Positions 14,755 to 61,675 of a stretch of DNA of 64,000 nucleotides are shown here, in pieces (position 1 is the first letter of the stretch; every line of letters begins with the position of its first letter). This DNA is from Cellulomonas sp. C5510 (lineage in GTDB: Bacteria; Actinomycetota; Actinomycetes; Actinomycetales; Cellulomonadaceae), in assembly GCF_019797765.1 (NCBI RefSeq), contig NZ_CP081862.1, positions 868,001 through 932,000 on the forward strand, written 5' to 3'. The notes beneath the pieces were generated by a model. It had not been told where the DNA came from, made no database searches, and was given only the letters and a program-made list of their open reading frames with translations. A program made the translations under genes and the position numbers.

Positions 14755-16071
<1,317 letters not shown>

Positions 16072-16089
16072 GCCCTCACGCTCACGACC

Positions 16090-16124
16090 GGAGGCCGGTA
16101 GCCCTGACGGGGCTGCCGGCCTCC
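16090..16124 (+). terminator. Terminator hairpin after eno
   Basis: A 15-bp stem (16090-16104 with 16110-16124, one T-G wobble) closes a 5-base TGACG loop, 18 bases after the eno stop. No T-run follows. Confidence 0.78.
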
Positions 16125-16176
16125 GGCGCGTCCGCTCCCGCCGCCTCGCCGGCCGCCGCCTGCCGCCGCCGGGTCC

Positions 16177-16247
16177 GCGAGTTCGGCAGCTCCGGTGCGA
16201 GGTCGGCACCTGGAGCTGCCGAACTCGCCTGGACGTGCCGACCTCGC
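16177..16247. repeat. Two-forward/two-reverse repeat array A (GCGAGKTCGGCA word)
   Basis: The 12-base word GCGAGTTCGGCA occurs at 16177, its variant GCGAGGTCGGCA at 16198, then the reverse complements at 16217-16228 and 16236-16247. Copy 1 pairs with copy 3 over 17 perfect bases (16177-16193 with 16212-16228). Copy 2 pairs with copy 4 over 13 perfect bases. The two stems interlock rather than nest. The same plan recurs at 45736 and, with a changed word, at 60634. Confidence 0.85.
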
Positions 16248-24518: not shown

Positions 24519-24592
24519 GCCCCCGTAGCCCAACCGGCAGAGGCAGCCGGCTTAAACCCGGCACAGTGTGGGTTCGACCCCCGCCGGGGGCA
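24519..24592 (+). tRNA. tRNA with anticodon UAA (tRNA-Leu by code), short variable arm
   Basis: All arms can be drawn. The acceptor is GCCCCCG (24519-24525) with CGGGGGC (24585-24591) and discriminator A 24592. The D arm has a 3-bp GCC/GGC stem and an 11-base loop, a shape usual in leucine tRNAs. Anticodon stem GCCGG/CCGGC encloses CTTAAAC, with anticodon TAA at 24553-24555. The T arm is GTGGG/CCCGC with loop TTCGACC. The variable region is only five bases (ACAGT), whereas bacterial leucine tRNAs normally carry a long arm. CCA is not encoded (CCT follows). Confidence 0.88.
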
Positions 24593-43238: not shown

Positions 43239-44503
43239 GCGCGCCGGGCCTGCCCGGGCGGGGCTGGCGCAGCCGGGCGCGGAGCCGCCGGGCCGTCGCC
43301 GCCGAGCCGGCGCCGGTGCTCCACGAGGGCGACCTGACGTCCGGCGCGACGCCCCGCGGCTGGAGCGCCGAGCAGTCGGTGACGCCGTCCGTGCGCGCCG
43401 CCGCCGCGTGGTCGTGGCGGTTCCTGCTCATCGTGGCTGCGGCGGCCGCCGCGCTGTGGCTCGTCGGGTACTTCCAGATGATCGTCGTGGCCGTCGCCGT
43501 CGCGCTGCTGCTGACCGTGCTGCTCACGCCGGTGGCCCGGTGGCTGCGGCGGGCGGCCCGCTTCCCGCGCGCCCTGGCCTCGATCACCTCCGTGCTGCTC
43601 CTGCTCGCCGCCGTCACCGGGCTCGTCGTCATCGCCGGGCGCTCCATCGCGGCAGGGTTCGGCGACCTGTCCGACCAGGCGTCCCAGGGCATCGACGAGG
43701 CCCTCACGTGGCTGTCGGACGGGCCGCTCGGCATCGACACCGTCCAGCTCGACCAGCTGGTGCAGCAGGGGCGGGAGCAGCTCAGCGCCAACGCCGACGC
43801 CCTGCTGTCCGGCGCGCTGTCGGTGACCACGACCGTCGGGCACGTCGCCGCCGGCACGCTGATCGCGCTGTTCTGCACGTTCTTCTTCCTGCTCGACGGC
43901 CGCACCATCTGGTCCTGGGTGGTCGGGCTGCTGCCGTCGTCCGTGCGGGAGCGGGTGCACCAGGCCGGCCGCCGCGGCATCGTCACGCTGTCCGGCTACA
44001 CCCGCACGCAGATCCTCGTCGCCCTGGTCGACGCCACCGGGATCGGCCTCGGCGCCGCGATCCTCGGGGTGCCGCTCGCCCTGCCGCTGGCCACGCTGGT
44101 GTTCGTCGGCTCGTTCATCCCGATCGTCGGCGCGATCGCCACCGGCGCCGTCGCGGTGCTGGTCGCCCTCGTCGCGAAGGGCTGGGTCGTCGCGCTGATC
44201 ATGCTGGGCGTGGTGCTCGCGGTGCAGCAGATCGAGGGGCACGTGCTCCAGCCGTTCCTCATGGGCCACGCGGTGTCGCTGCACCCCGTCGCGGTGCTGC
44301 TGGTCGTGACCGCCGGGTCGATGGCGGCCGGCATCGTCGGCGCCCTGTTCGCCGTGCCGATCGCCGCCGTGCTGAACACCGTCGTGCTGTACCTGCACGG
44401 GCACGACAAGTTCCCGCAGCTCGGCACGGACGACCACCCCGACCTGCGACCACCGGGTCTGTTCTCGCAGCGCGGGGCAGGCGGGGCGGACTCCCGTGGC
44501 TGA
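43235..44503 (+). CDS. AI-2E family transporter (PerM/YdiK type)
   Basis: 422-residue membrane protein with about eight helices after a 65-residue cytoplasmic head. The family pattern is clear: paired helices at 70-115, a long soluble middle region (FGDLSDQASQGIDEALTWLS), then YTRTQILVALVDATGIGLGA and LVFVGSFIPIVGAIATGAVA, ending with QQIEGHVLQPFLMGHAVSLH. Members export small molecules or ions, and evidence for autoinducer-2 export is limited to a few. It is coupled to metB (four-base overlap) and to ilvA (eight-base overlap), so a role in amino-acid export is conceivable. Confidence 0.88.
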   Translation: MSAPGLPGRGWRSRARSRRAVAAEPAPVLHEGDLTSGATPRGWSAEQSVTPSVRAAAAWSWRFLLIVAAAAAALWLVGYFQMIVVAVAVALLLTVLLTPVARWLRRAARFPRALASITSVLLLLAAVTGLVVIAGRSIAAGFGDLSDQASQGIDEALTWLSDGPLGIDTVQLDQLVQQGREQLSANADALLSGALSVTTTVGHVAAGTLIALFCTFFFLLDGRTIWSWVVGLLPSSVRERVHQAGRRGIVTLSGYTRTQILVALVDATGIGLGAAILGVPLALPLATLVFVGSFIPIVGAIATGAVAVLVALVAKGWVVALIMLGVVLAVQQIEGHVLQPFLMGHAVSLHPVAVLLVVTAGSMAAGIVGALFAVPIAAVLNTVVLYLHGHDKFPQLGTDDHPDLRPPGLFSQRGAGGADSRG

Positions 44504-45719
44504 GCGGACCGAGGTGAGCTTCCTGGAGGACGCCCGGGTCGCCGCCCGCCTGCTGGACGGGGTGGCGACACGGACGCCGGTGGAGACGTCCCGGGCGCTG
44601 TCGCAGGTCGCGGGCGTCCCGGTGCACCTCAAGTGCGAGAACCTGCAGCGGGCCGGGTCCTTCAAGATCCGCGGCGCGTACGTGCGCATGTCCCGGCTGT
44701 CCCCCGAGGAGAAGGCGCGGGGTGTCGTCGCGGCGAGCGCCGGCAACCACGCGCAGGGGGTCGCGCTCGCCGCGCAGCTGCTCGGGATCGACGCCGTCGT
44801 GTACATGCCGGTCGACGCCGCCCTGCCGAAGATCGCGGCGACCAAGGAGTACGGCGCCGAGGTGCGCCCGCACGGCCGCAGCGTCGACGAGGCGCTGGTC
44901 GCCGCCCGGGCGGAGGCCGACCGGACCGGGCGGGTGCTCATCCACCCGTTCGACCACGCCGACATCGTGGCCGGGCAGGGGACGCTGGCGCTCGAGGTCC
45001 TCGAGCAGGTGCCGGACGTCCGGACGATCGTCGTGCCGCTCGGCGGCGGCGGGCTGGCGGCGGGCATCCAGGCGGTCGTCGCCGAGGCGGCGCCCCACGT
45101 CCGGGTGATCGGCGTCCAGGCGGCCCGTGCCGCGGCGTACCCGGCGTCCCTCGTCGCGGGGGAGCCGGTGCCGGCACCGGAGCTGCACACCATGGCGGAC
45201 GGGATCGCGGTGGGCACGCCCGGGCGGGTGCCGTTCGACGTGCTGCGGCGCCACGCCTGCGAGGTGCGCACCGTCTCCGAGGAGGACCTGTCCCGCGCGC
45301 TGCTGCTCGTCGCGGAGCGGGCGAAGCTGCTCGTCGAGCCCTCCGGGGCCGCCGGGGTCGCCGCCGTCATGGCCGCCGGGGCCGGGGACCTCGAGGGGCC
45401 CGTGGTGGTCGTGCTGTCCGGGGGGAACATCGACCCGCTCGTGCTGCTCCGCGTCGTCCGCCACGGGCTCGCCGTCTCCGGCCGGTACCTGCAGCTGCGG
45501 GTGCGCGTCCACGACACCCCGGGCGCGCTCGCGGGTCTGCTGCGCGAGCTCGCGTCCGCCGGCGGCAACGTCATGCACGTGTCGCACGTCCGCACCGGGG
45601 TGGACCTGGAGATCGACGAGGTCGAGATCGAGGTCCAGGTGGAGACCAAGGGCCCCGAGCACTGCGCGCGCCTCCTGCAGAGCCTCCGCGACGCCGGCTT
45701 CCGCCTGTCCGAGCACTGA
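44496..45719 (+). CDS. ilvA: Threonine ammonia-lyase with C-terminal ACT domain
   Basis: 407-residue PLP enzyme converting threonine to 2-oxobutanoate, the first step to isoleucine, or serine to pyruvate. The lysine is K57 in RAGSFKIRGAY. SAGNHAQGVALAAQ follows, and the PLP phosphate loop is PLGGGGLAAG near residue 185. Residues 330-407 form one ACT domain (LRVRVHDTPGALAGLLRELA), which would allow allosteric control. A single ACT and ~400 residues fit the shorter biosynthetic/catabolic class. GTG 44496 overlaps the transporter gene by eight bases. Confidence 0.92.
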   Translation: MAERTEVSFLEDARVAARLLDGVATRTPVETSRALSQVAGVPVHLKCENLQRAGSFKIRGAYVRMSRLSPEEKARGVVAASAGNHAQGVALAAQLLGIDAVVYMPVDAALPKIAATKEYGAEVRPHGRSVDEALVAARAEADRTGRVLIHPFDHADIVAGQGTLALEVLEQVPDVRTIVVPLGGGGLAAGIQAVVAEAAPHVRVIGVQAARAAAYPASLVAGEPVPAPELHTMADGIAVGTPGRVPFDVLRRHACEVRTVSEEDLSRALLLVAERAKLLVEPSGAAGVAAVMAAGAGDLEGPVVVVLSGGNIDPLVLLRVVRHGLAVSGRYLQLRVRVHDTPGALAGLLRELASAGGNVMHVSHVRTGVDLEIDEVEIEVQVETKGPEHCARLLQSLRDAGFRLSEH

Positions 45720-45735: not shown

Positions 45736-45838
45736 GCGAGTTCGGCACTCCCGGTGCGAGTTCGGCACCGAGGACTGCCGAACTCGCCTGGATGTGCCGA
45801 CCTCGCCGCGCTCTCTCGGCCCGGCGTGCCGACCGCGC
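45736..45838. repeat. Two-forward/two-reverse repeat array B (GCGAGTTCGGCA word)
   Basis: GCGAGTTCGGCA at 45736 and 45756, then reverse copies at 45776-45787 and 45795-45806, the last with GCGAGGTCGGCA spelling. A fifth, one-mismatch reverse copy is at 45827-45838. Spacing is 19-20 bases, nearly the same plan as array A after eno. It begins 16 bases after the ilvA stop. Confidence 0.85.
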
Positions 45839-45916: not shown

Positions 45917-46405
45917 TCAGCCCTCGAAGGGCTTCGCGGCCTTGATCTCGACGGGGATCTCGCGGCCGTTCGGCGCGGTGTAGGCCACCGTGTCGCCGAC
46001 CTGGCGGCCGTTGATGGAGGCGCCGAGCGGCGACGTGGGGGAGAAGACCTCGATGTCGGCGCTGCCGGCGATCTCGCGGGAGCCCAGGAGGAACGTCATC
46101 TCGTCTCCCGCCACCACGGCGGTCACGACCATGCCCGGCTCCACGACGCCGTCGTCCGGCGGGGTGCCGATCTGCACGTTGCGCAGCTTCTCCTTGAGCT
46201 CGCGGATGCGGGCCTCCTGCTTGGCCTGCTCCTCGCGCGCCGCGTGGTAGCCCCCGTTCTCCTTGAGGTCGCCCTCGTCACGCGCGGCGGCGATGCGCTC
46301 GGTGACCTCGGCGCGTCCGGGGCCCTCGAGGTGCTCGAGCTCCGCCTTGAGGCGGTCGTAGGCCTCCTGCGTCAGCCAGGTGGCGGCCTGCGTCGTGTCG
46401 GTCAC
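45917..46405 (-). CDS. greA: Transcription elongation factor GreA
   Basis: 162-residue factor that enters the RNA polymerase secondary channel and stimulates cleavage of backtracked RNA. The N-terminal coiled coil begins TWLTQEAYDRLKAELEHLEG and carries the tip acids in AAARDEGDLKENGGYHAARE (Asp, Glu). The C-terminal FKBP-like domain has TFLLGSREIAG and SPTSPLGASINGRQVGD. GGAAGGAG precedes GTG 46405 by about seven bases. In M. tuberculosis greA also lies near mca. Its leader may be unusually long (see the dyad at 46568). Confidence 0.96.
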   Translation of the reverse strand: MTDTTQAATWLTQEAYDRLKAELEHLEGPGRAEVTERIAAARDEGDLKENGGYHAAREEQAKQEARIRELKEKLRNVQIGTPPDDGVVEPGMVVTAVVAGDEMTFLLGSREIAGSADIEVFSPTSPLGASINGRQVGDTVAYTAPNGREIPVEIKAAKPFEG

Positions 46406-59238: not shown

Positions 59239-60600
59239 ATGGCATCCATCACCCTGACGGACATCGTCAAGGAGTACGGCGACGGCTACCCGGCGGTCAA
59301 CGGCGTCAGCCTCGACATCAAGGACGGCGAGTTCGTCATCCTCGTCGGCCCGTCCGGCTGCGGGAAGTCGACGCTGCTCCGGATGATCGTCGGCCTCGAG
59401 GACATCACGTCCGGGGAGCTGAGGATCGGCGACGAGGTGGTCAACGAGAAGGCGCCGCGCGACCGGCACCTGGCGATGGTGTTCCAGAACTACGCGCTGT
59501 ACCCGCACCTCACCGTGTTCGAGAACATCGCGTTCCCGCTGCGGCTGCAGAAGGGGAAGTTCACCGAGGACGAGATCCGCTCGCACGTCGAGTTCGCGGC
59601 CGACACCCTCGAGCTGCGCGAGCACCTGGACCGCAAGCCCGCGAACCTCTCCGGCGGGCAGCGGCAGCGGGTCGCGATGGGCCGCGCGATCGTCCGCGAC
59701 GCCCGCGCCTTCCTGTTCGACGAGCCGCTGTCGAACCTCGACGCGAAGCTGCGCGGGCAGATGCGCACCGAGATCGCCCGGATGCAGCGCCGGCTCGGCA
59801 CCACCACGGTCTACGTCACGCACGACCAGACCGAGGCGATGACGCTCGGCGACCGGGTCGCCGTGCTCCGCAAGGGCGAGCTGCAGCAGGTCGCGAGCCC
59901 GCGGGCGCTGTACGAGCAGCCCGTCAACCTGTTCGTCGCGGGGTTCATCGGGTCCCCGCCGATGAACTTCATGCCCGGCGAGGTGCGCGGCGACTCCCTG
60001 GTGCTGCCGTTCGCCGAGGTGCCCCTCACGGACGACCTGCGGCAGCGCGTCGACGGACGCGACCTGGTGATCGTCGGCCTGCGCCCCGAGCACGTCGAGG
60101 ACGCGCGCGTCATGGACGGGACGAAGCGGGACGGCGGTGTGCGGTTCGAGGCCGACGTGGACGTCGTGGAGTGGCTCGGCGCGGAGCTGTACGCGTACAT
60201 CCCGTTCGACACGCACGCCGACGTCGCGGCGAAGCTCGAGGAGCTCGACCGGGACCTCGACGGAGAGGGCATGCGCACCCAGGTCGTCGTCGCGCTGGGG
60301 TCCGAGAGCCGGGTGCGTGACGGCAGCCGCGCGGAGCTGTGGTTCGACCCGCGGCGGCTGCTGGTGTTCGACCCGGAGTCGGGCGAGAACCTCACGTACG
60401 ACGACGAGGCCGCGAAGCGGATCGACGCCGAGACGGAGGAGGACCGCCGGGCGGCGCTGGAGCGGGCGCACCGCGACGCGGAGCGCTCGGACGACGGCAC
60501 GCCGTCGGACGGCCGCGCGCCCGACCGCGAGCCGTCCGGCGGACGCGAGCCCTCCGGCGGCCGCGAGCCGTCCGCGGGCCGGCACCGCCAGGCAGGCTGA
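59239..60600 (+). CDS. Sugar ABC transporter ATPase, SugC/MsmK-like, with extended tail
   Basis: 453-residue import ATPase. Walker A GPSGCGKSTLLRMIVGLE near residue 38, Q-loop MVFQNYALYPHLTVFENIAF, signature NLSGGQRQRVAMGRAI near 140, Walker B AFLFDEPLSNLDAKL near 157, His switch in TVYVTHDQTEAMTLGD. Residues 235-370 form the regulatory TOBE/OB region (IVGLRPEHVEDARV). The final 65 residues are charged and end in repeated REPSGG units, longer than usual. It completes the importer, and one ATPase of this type can serve several systems. Confidence 0.93.
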   Translation: MASITLTDIVKEYGDGYPAVNGVSLDIKDGEFVILVGPSGCGKSTLLRMIVGLEDITSGELRIGDEVVNEKAPRDRHLAMVFQNYALYPHLTVFENIAFPLRLQKGKFTEDEIRSHVEFAADTLELREHLDRKPANLSGGQRQRVAMGRAIVRDARAFLFDEPLSNLDAKLRGQMRTEIARMQRRLGTTTVYVTHDQTEAMTLGDRVAVLRKGELQQVASPRALYEQPVNLFVAGFIGSPPMNFMPGEVRGDSLVLPFAEVPLTDDLRQRVDGRDLVIVGLRPEHVEDARVMDGTKRDGGVRFEADVDVVEWLGAELYAYIPFDTHADVAAKLEELDRDLDGEGMRTQVVVALGSESRVRDGSRAELWFDPRRLLVFDPESGENLTYDDEAAKRIDAETEEDRRAALERAHRDAERSDDGTPSDGRAPDREPSGGREPSGGREPSAGRHRQAG

Positions 60601-60633
60601 CCCCCGGCCGGGCTGCCGCCCCGGCTCCGCCGT

Positions 60634-60702
60634 CGAGGTCGTCAGCTCGGGCCGAGGTCGTCACGTCGGCGTGACGACCTCGGCCGGACGTGACGACCCC
60701 GG
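60634..60702. repeat. Two-forward/two-reverse repeat array C (CGAGGTCGTCA word)
   Basis: CGAGGTCGTCA at 60634, CCGAGGTCGTCA at 60652, then reverse copies TGACGACCTCGG at 60672-60683 and TGACGACCCCGG at 60691-60702. Copies 2 and 3 form a perfect 15-bp stem (60651-60665 with 60670-60684) with a TCGG loop, which can terminate both converging genes. Same plan and about the same spacing as arrays A and B. Confidence 0.82.
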
Positions 60703-60727: not shown

Positions 60728-61675
60728 TCAGGCCTCGCCGAGCTCCGCGGACGTGGGCGGGTTTGCGCCGGCGCGCGACACGGTGATCGCGGCGATCGCC
60801 ACGCAGCGCGCGAGCACCCGCTCGACCGTCGCCACGTCGACCTCCCGCAGCTGCTCGCGCGCGTCCGCGCCGAGCAGGCCGGCGGTCCACAGGCCGTCGA
60901 CCAGCCCGGCCATGAACGAGTCGCCCGCGCCGACGGTGTCCGCGACCTGCACCCGCGGCGCCGTCACGGTCAGCTCGTCGCCGCCCGCGGTGACCGCCAG
61001 CGCGCCCTCGCCGCCGAGTGTCACCACGACGAGCGCCGGTCCGCGCCCGACCCAGTCGCGCGCGACCTCCACCGGGGGCACACCCGGGTGGAGCCAGCCC
61101 AGGTCCTCGTCCGACACCTTGACGACGTCCGCCAGGCCGACGAGCCGCTCCACGACGGGCAGCGTCTGCTCCGGAGAGCCCATGAGCGCGGGCCGCAGGT
61201 TGGGGTCGTACGTCAGCGTCGCGCCCTCCCTGCGGTCCGCGAGCAGCCGGGCGACCGCCTCGCCGCCCGGCTCGATGACCGTGGCGATCGACCCGGTGTG
61301 CACGACCAGCGCCTCGCCGTCGCCCTCGTCCCAGCGGTCCGGGAGGTCCCACGTCAGGTCGAACTCGTAGCTCGCCACGCCGGCCTCGTCGACGTGCGCG
61401 CGGGCGACCGGGGTGTGCTCCGGTCGGCGGTCCCCGGCGAGCACGTGGACGCCGGAGGACTCCAGGTGCGTGCGCACCAGGTCGCCGTGGGCGTCGTCCC
61501 CGAGCCAGGTGAGCAGGTCCACGCGGCGCCCGAGCCGGCCGAGGCCGATCGCCACGTTCGCGGGGCTGCCGCCAGGGTGCTCGGCGGGCTCGTCGCCCGG
61601 CCGCAGCACGACGTCGACGAGGGCCTCCCCGACGACGAGCGCGCGGGCGGTGGCGGGGGCGGACTGCTCGGACAT
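60728..61675 (-). CDS. PfkB-family carbohydrate kinase (fructokinase-like)
   Basis: 315-residue ribokinase-fold kinase. ALVVGEALVDVVLRPG begins the sheet, GGSPANVAIGLGRLG near residue 36 is PfkB signature 1, and DTVGAGDSFMAGLVDGL near 250 holds the catalytic Asp and anion hole. YDPNLRPALMGSPEQ and VSDEDLGWLHPG match the fructokinase branch. The position next to a disaccharide importer fits phosphorylation of a released hexose, but it is convergent with the importer and may be independent. Confidence 0.88.
   Translation of the reverse strand: MSEQSAPATARALVVGEALVDVVLRPGDEPAEHPGGSPANVAIGLGRLGRRVDLLTWLGDDAHGDLVRTHLESSGVHVLAGDRRPEHTPVARAHVDEAGVASYEFDLTWDLPDRWDEGDGEALVVHTGSIATVIEPGGEAVARLLADRREGATLTYDPNLRPALMGSPEQTLPVVERLVGLADVVKVSDEDLGWLHPGVPPVEVARDWVGRGPALVVVTLGGEGALAVTAGGDELTVTAPRVQVADTVGAGDSFMAGLVDGLWTAGLLGADAREQLREVDVATVERVLARCVAIAAITVSRAGANPPTSAELGEA

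Follow-up and report, generated by a model that had tools for sequence, protein, structure and literature searches.

The window, the whole stretch of 64,000 nucleotides that was analysed, carries a repeat element of four short words downstream of eno (Table 1). Two forward words (F1, F2) are followed by two reverse words (R1, R2), located as given in an earlier, sequence-only reading of this DNA. Perfect pairing of the first copy with the third over 17 bp and of the second with the fourth over 13 bp had also been reported, and both arm pairs (16177-16193/16212-16228 and 16197-16209/16235-16247) were confirmed at 100%. No T-run is present 3′ of this element, where GGGGGTCGGGGG comes after 16247 minus one letter. 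Comparison of the window with Rfam gave no match above the gathering score at the element, the only hit being a tRNA (24519-24592). The separate eno terminator that had been noticed upstream of the array is real as a hairpin, and it also follows eno in relatives that lack the array. The element itself is present after eno in the genome of the window (G000), G001 and G015, has left a decayed trace in G009 and is absent from G041, G028, G038 and G035, while the ordinary hairpin is kept in all eight. For this comparison the eno stop was placed by script in 20 of 30 loci, and two more of the eight were read by eye. With this hairpin of its own, eno does not need the element as a terminator.

Table 1. 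Coordinates of the elements, their words and neighbouring features in the window
Feature	Position	Strand	Remarks
Whole four-word element after eno, family A (GGCA words), 71 bp	16177..16247	-	strand when the 19-bp step is read first
Word F1, GCGAGTTCGGCA	16177..16188	+	
Word F2, GCGAGGTCGGCA	16197..16208	+	
Word R1, GCGAGTTCGGCA on the - strand	16217..16228	-	
Word R2, GCGAGGTCGGCA on the - strand	16236..16247	-	
eno (enolase)	14791..16071	+	stop codon 105 nt ahead of the element
Ordinary hairpin	16088..16126	+	16 nt past the eno stop; retained in relatives whether or not they have the element
Second family-A element	45736..45806	-	16 nt past the stop of predicted gene 44496-45719; convergent with 45917-46405
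Family-B element (GTCA words), 70 bp	60633..60702	+	32 nt past the stop of predicted gene 59239-60600; convergent with 60728-61675

The same F-F-R-R layout had been claimed behind two other predicted genes, labelled ilvA and sugC-like in the sequence-only reading, and elements with this word order were indeed found at both places (second and third element in Table 1). The window contains 15 matches to the core word GAGKTCGKCA, compared to a mean of 0.98 in dinucleotide shuffles that leave codon usage uncontrolled; 11 of the 15 matches are inside the three arrays and 4 are outside. A genome-wide search of G000 gave two words separated by 8 nt (word+8+word) at 25 places on each strand, and 0 in the backwards control. 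When the gap was left free (4-30), only 28-nt cores and spans of 46-48 nt (F1-to-R1 or F2-to-R2) were obtained, so the inner gap of 8 was not imposed by the search. A looser scan of the G000 loci (22 stretches and the window) revealed 30 centres, 28 of them with all four words, and a covariance model gave 63 strand matches at about 32 places. In total G000 holds about 30 blocks of about 70 bp (68-72 bp with four words) in F-F-R-R order, with outer steps of 19-20 bp and an inner gap of 8, so further copies of the array do exist.

Two word families are present in G000, A (..GGCA) and B (..GTCA). The outer steps are 19/20 or 20/19 in all 21 family-A elements of this genome and 19/19 in all 6 family-B elements as well as in one mixed element. 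Having one 19-bp and one 20-bp outer step, family-A elements possess an orientation. Arrays with extra words (FFFRR, FFRRRRRR and others) hold the 19-20-bp steps. One FFRRRRRR array (L138, from 6711) carries its six reverse units in 19-bp steps; in its G000 ortholog (L043) the additional ones have decayed. Two RF pairs at 19 and 20 bp (L163, L159) and a few R-before-F words at other distances were seen, and no convincing isolated FF or RR ends flanking a gene were found in the loci examined.

Gene contexts were taken from a codon-usage gene finder made for this analysis. Of the 30 centres in G000, 11 are located in convergent gaps, where 3.5 were expected, and only one in a divergent gap (6.9 expected). 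Fifteen are co-directional, 12 of them nearer to the stop than to the next start, and three are in no called gap (two inside gene ends, one without a called left gene). The median distance to the stop is 45 nt versus 111 nt for random placement in the same loci. The expected enrichment 3′ of genes was thus confirmed. Among 30 loci from other genomes (one per genome), 19 have at least 18 of the 22 nested letters; 11 of these well-paired elements are convergent, and all 19 are intergenic or, in two cases, overlap a gene end by 11 nt, none lying inside a gene. Of the remaining 11 loci, 8 are in genes and look like chance. Sequence flanking the G000 elements is rich in C on the left side (0.33) and in G on the right side (-0.40), compared to 0.09 in a control taken after stops and to 0.09 and -0.13 in other genomes. 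This C-rich and then G-rich simple sequence, visible for example around 4049-4119 of L045, is much weaker outside G000. Two G000 elements (L056, L060) lie within the 3′ end of a gene that runs with its stop into the start of the next, so that a terminator at these places would cut an operon. In L056 (6035-6104) this gene encodes an ABC-transporter ATPase and lies beside bioY; an element is present at the same site in C. pakistanensis (L101, near 6421) and none in Cellulomonas sp. IC4_254 (L078).

A scan blind to words and tag, but not to place because the relatives' anchor loci had been chosen where G000 has an element, covered gene-anchor loci, eno loci and flanks and gave 28 nested four-word arrays, with 0 in shuffled sequence. 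CGAG or CTCG stands on at least one word in 27 of these arrays and on both sides in 25. Eight arrays have words outside families A and B, e.g. CGAGAGAGCAT and CGAGCGAGCAG, and in all eight the tag is found on some word. With CGAG fixed and the words left free, there are matches in 48 of the 60 genus genomes; 32 have at least 5 and up to 54 (backwards control at most 2), and the other 16 have 1-4, near control level. Nine other tetranucleotides in the tag position (including CGTC, excluding GTAG) gave 0 matches apart from one CGGG. Dialects differ between genomes, with CGAGCGCGGTAC in G019, CGAGATAGGACC, CGAGCGCGGTGG and CGAGATCGGTGC in G009, and several ends mixed in G049. A family with fixed architecture and changing word, as claimed before, is therefore seen both in families A and B and in the species dialects at constant spacing.

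The covariance model matches 41 of the 60 genus genomes, often with changed words. Model and tag pattern disagree for G037 and G043, for which the model gives 44 and 65 strand matches, respectively, and the pattern 0. At the order level, with at most 17 candidates scored per genome, 29 of 297 genomes and 14 of 94 genera match, of which the weakest matches (e.g. L328-L331) may be plain hairpins. In the phylum the pattern search matches 71 of 396 genomes, 22 times in G000 and 1-4 times in each of the others, about as often as the backwards control; outside G000 only G079 looks real by eye. A class with 20-bp steps (L223, L253, L280, L086 near 2092) keeps the spacer around GACGCGTC or GACACGTC while the words change. 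L297 and L302 of G057 are two copies of another palindrome with a GTGGAGSGTT-like outer word and CGACACGCC as inner word.

Interlocking of the stems had been taken as the architecture of the whole family, which the covariation analysis did not bear out. In an alignment of 46 of 123 elements (14 from G000, 32 from other genomes) both sides have changed in 105 cells, in 11 pairs, for the nested register, compared to 80 cells, in 7 pairs, for the interlocked register; both registers beat shuffles because the words are alike. The T/G letter pattern TGTG, which makes the eno copy interlock, occurs in one of 18 family-A elements of G000 and in one of 109 elements overall. Judged from these alignments, the general pairing of the family is nested, and perfect interlock is peculiar to the eno copy. 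In the A 19/19 group (18 elements, including those of Promicromonospora) the spacers also pair in the nested register, with 100/108 and 78/108 letters and 0 of 2000 shuffles as high. Nested and interlocked spacer pairing are each partly above shuffles in family B, and in Cellulomonas family A 19/20 and 20/20 spacer pairing is not clearly above shuffles in either register. Spacer pairing as a general rule was rejected, as it holds in A 19/19, partly in family B and not in these Cellulomonas groups. The predicted RNA folds of four examples are stable (z -5 to -12); the fold of the eno copy uses the 17-bp F1:R1 stem, and the other three copies are nested. A functional interlocked two-stem (pseudoknot) form could draw on this fold, on the perfect 17- and 13-bp pairs of the eno copy and on the interlocked register being above shuffles, family-B spacer letters included. 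Nevertheless we consider it highly improbable, given the higher score of the nested register, the single TGTG pattern among 109 elements and the nested folds of the other three copies; furthermore, linkers of 3, 2 and 6 nt would seem sterically implausible for stems of 17 and 13 bp.

Compared to its ortholog in G001, the closest relative, the eno copy differs in F1 at K and at two spacer letters and in R1 at K, with 17-letter F1/R1 complementarity as the result. At site 1225891 GACGTC is common to F2 and R2, and G001 has GAGGTC and GAGTTC there. For the perfect interlock of the eno copy the best reading is that template switching recently copied one arm onto another, and not that the interlock is a working structure; by their letters, both sites look like such copies between arms. 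Template-switch copying, one of the mechanisms offered in the sequence-only reading, would therefore explain the perfect interlock of the single eno copy well, on the strength of two cases.

Words are better conserved than spacers. At six orthologous sites of G000 and G001 with the same family on both sides, which were reached via flanking genes (five anchors and eno), 2/216 word positions and 13/158 spacer positions differ (p 0.0006), and the K letter differs in 4 of 24 cases. The contrast is weak in three further pairs found through the words themselves (2/108 and 7/81, p 0.04); an earlier set of nine pairs, partly found through words, gave 2/315 and 27/265. Five same-site pairs with more distant species, where re-insertion is possible, differ at 4/180 and 55/145. 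Between family-A paralogs of G000 the divergence is 1.8% for words and 30.5% for spacers, which identifies the G000/G001 site pairs as orthologs. Stem pairing could account for part of the word conservation. Binding of a protein at fixed spacing, which had also been proposed, fits the conservation of words at the six sites (2/216 versus 13/158), although no candidate for a word-reading protein was found.

Orthologous sites were compared in 91 regions of relatives, a set that does not comprise G035 and excludes sites with an ambiguous anchor or an anchor off the contig. Eleven G001 regions were reached by gene anchor; 3 of them run off the contig and all 8 others contain an element. In three of the eight (1167069, 1245017, 2426604) the element belongs to family B in G001 and to family A in G000. 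At 2426604 G001 has the two families next to each other and G000 has a B word beside its A element, which makes differential loss one route of family swap. Three more swaps (149178, 1456767, 1480132) were found via word search. In six further relatives an A or B element is present at G000 sites in 8 of 80 regions, so the suspected presence/absence at orthologous gaps of sister strains is real. Genome-wide, enriched 3′ of genes and present or absent at sister gaps, the array is not a one-off terminator.

At some sites relatives carry an ordinary hairpin. All six relatives at site 1229066 have CGCCCGGG...CCCGGGCG just ahead of a conserved TGTGGAGGTTTGG, and G000 has the element instead. A GGCCCCGC-type hairpin is present in all six relatives at 2470147 and missing in G000 and G001. 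At 1167069 the four element-less relatives all have a hairpin that is missing in G000, and G041 and G017 still have its right arm next to their element. Only 3 of 16 sites show a clear replacement of the hairpin, and two (837604, 1407425) show it in part; no perfect stem was found in 4/4 element-less relatives at 928654, 4/5 at 148244 and 4/5 at 1480132. Folds are better than shuffles by more than 2 sd in 27 of 32 regions with an element and in 39 of 71 without. Comparison of filled and empty sites for a target-site duplication revealed no clean junction, the flanks having diverged too far. Contigs of one metagenome assembly (DE14.004; L064, L099, L118, L160) break off no more than about 100 bp from an element, so that draft genomes may under-count elements.

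A REP-like transposase had been suggested as the active mechanism. The REP transposase domain (PF01797; RAYT, Y1) was found in 4 of 98 relatives overall and in none of 11 word-bearing genomes, G000 and 10 others, which speaks against a RAYT-type enzyme. DUF222/HNH proteins (PF02720) were rejected as a cause, with 0 in the element-rich genomes G008, G022, G039 and G049 and 16 in G010, which has no elements by the model. Genes between or beside close element pairs were likewise rejected as mobile cargo, since no transposase was among the 10 scanned; their Pfam matches were UDG, SDR, Sua5, a weak AbiEi, DUF3039, acylphosphatase, BioY, ABC ATPase, FAD-binding and DUF4031. Searches of open-access literature brought up no account of such repeats, including among the matches listed for six word strings.

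GTAG- and CGTC-tagged REPs are, in the accessible part of the paper describing them, palindromes of 20-40 bp with a tetranucleotide tag, species-specific and with several families per genome; their usual place is 3′ of genes and between ORFs that are convergent or unidirectional, they form inverted dimers and have intragenic copies, and the CGTC-tagged class is without a known transposase (Di Nocera et al. 2013; PMC3733652). The term 'Actinobacteria' is absent from the main text of that paper. The CGAG arrays resemble these REPs, as far as this source describes them, in being short, palindromic, tagged and species-specific with several families per genome, and in lying chiefly 3′ of genes, inverted and in some cases intragenic (PMC3733652). 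They differ in that CGAG stands on all four words and pairs with CTCG in the nested fold, whereas the REP tag is described as unpaired at one end; in their length of about 70 bp with fixed steps and conserved word letters, compared to 20-40 bp; and, with respect to the GTAG class as described there, in the lack of RAYT in the word-bearing genomes. By tag, size and anatomy, as read from sequence, the arrays are not a member of the GTAG or CGTC class, while being like them in distribution, and they look like a third, CGAG-tagged class with unusual anatomy. Inverted intergenic pairs, extra units and family diversity are shared with the BIMEs and REPINs associated with RAYT (TnpA-REP), in the portion of PMC6006769 available; unlike those, the 11 word-bearing genomes have no PF01797 and the elements seen no GTAG foot. 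Like intrinsic terminators, the arrays form a stable hairpin soon after the stop and at some sites take the position of the ordinary hairpin of relatives; they differ in repeating their words at some 30 places and across several genera, in having no T-run and in their two-tier four-word layout. In Neisseriaceae, inverted DUS pairs occur at gene ends and double as terminators. DUS are also short words with dialects between species (PMC3630211); unlike DUS, CGAG elements are few and stand in four-word arrays.

We tentatively favour, at somewhat less than an even chance, a repeated CGAG-tagged F-F-R-R gene-end palindrome that is likely a two-way transcription-end module and probably recognised by a protein word by word. 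The element would end or insulate transcription from both sides, a protein would read the words one by one, and the element would spread by being copied into gene ends. The constant tag, the fixed steps, the word conservation at individual sites and the free K letter argue for a reader of words; placement, and the fact that relatives have ordinary hairpins at part of these sites, speak for the two-way transcript-end role. As hairpin replacement is clear at so few sites, this reading was graded slightly lower. A selfish, REP-like palindrome that serves no host function, is moved by a CGAG-reading enzyme and piles up at gene ends where insertion harms least appears rather unlikely, although presence/absence between sisters, species-specific families, copies within gene ends, extra copies side by side and a placement as in the described tagged REPs (PMC3733652, in the part available) all agree with it. 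Inert insertions should not show words better conserved than spacers since the G000/G001 split; moreover, the word-bearing genomes have no Y1 transposase (PF01797) and no clean target duplication was seen, between flanks too diverged to exclude one.

A more far-reaching variant, which we regard as doubtful, takes the arrays as sites of a re-codable gene-end system of Actinobacteria, in which a conserved protein part would read the CGAG tag and the 19-20-bp spacing and a fast-evolving part the species-specific rest of the word, arrays replacing ordinary terminators as dialects arise. Stable folds, nested covariation, the paired spacers of the A 19/19 group and the ordinary hairpins of relatives in the same place could also be accounted for by a plain RNA hairpin (an intrinsic-type terminator or an mRNA 3′-end stabiliser) that was copied many times and whose words no protein reads. 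This is improbable, as one-sided K changes break pairs and yet are the commonest word change, the remaining letters of the words hardly vary from locus to locus, as the family-A paralogs of G000 show, spacer pairing in Cellulomonas family A is no better than in shuffled sequence, and the sequence after the elements is G-rich and not T-rich. A signal word of the uptake type, with dialects like those of Neisseriaceae and inverted pairs that double as terminators, would suit a word of 10-12 nt in inverted pairs at gene ends with species dialects, similar to DUS dialects as far as PMC3630211 describes them; as a genome has some 30 sites, almost all of them arrays, and 4 of the 15 matches in the window stand apart from arrays, we give it hardly any weight.

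If the CGAG-tagged palindromes are a third tagged class, they would fall in a group for which none was found described in the open-access literature searched. Four tagged words at fixed steps with a dialect per species are an anatomy that lets one ask directly what reads it, and the repeats would be a test case for an enzyme moving REP-like repeats without RAYT. The sites at which orthologous genes end differently offer a setting to test how genes gain new ends.
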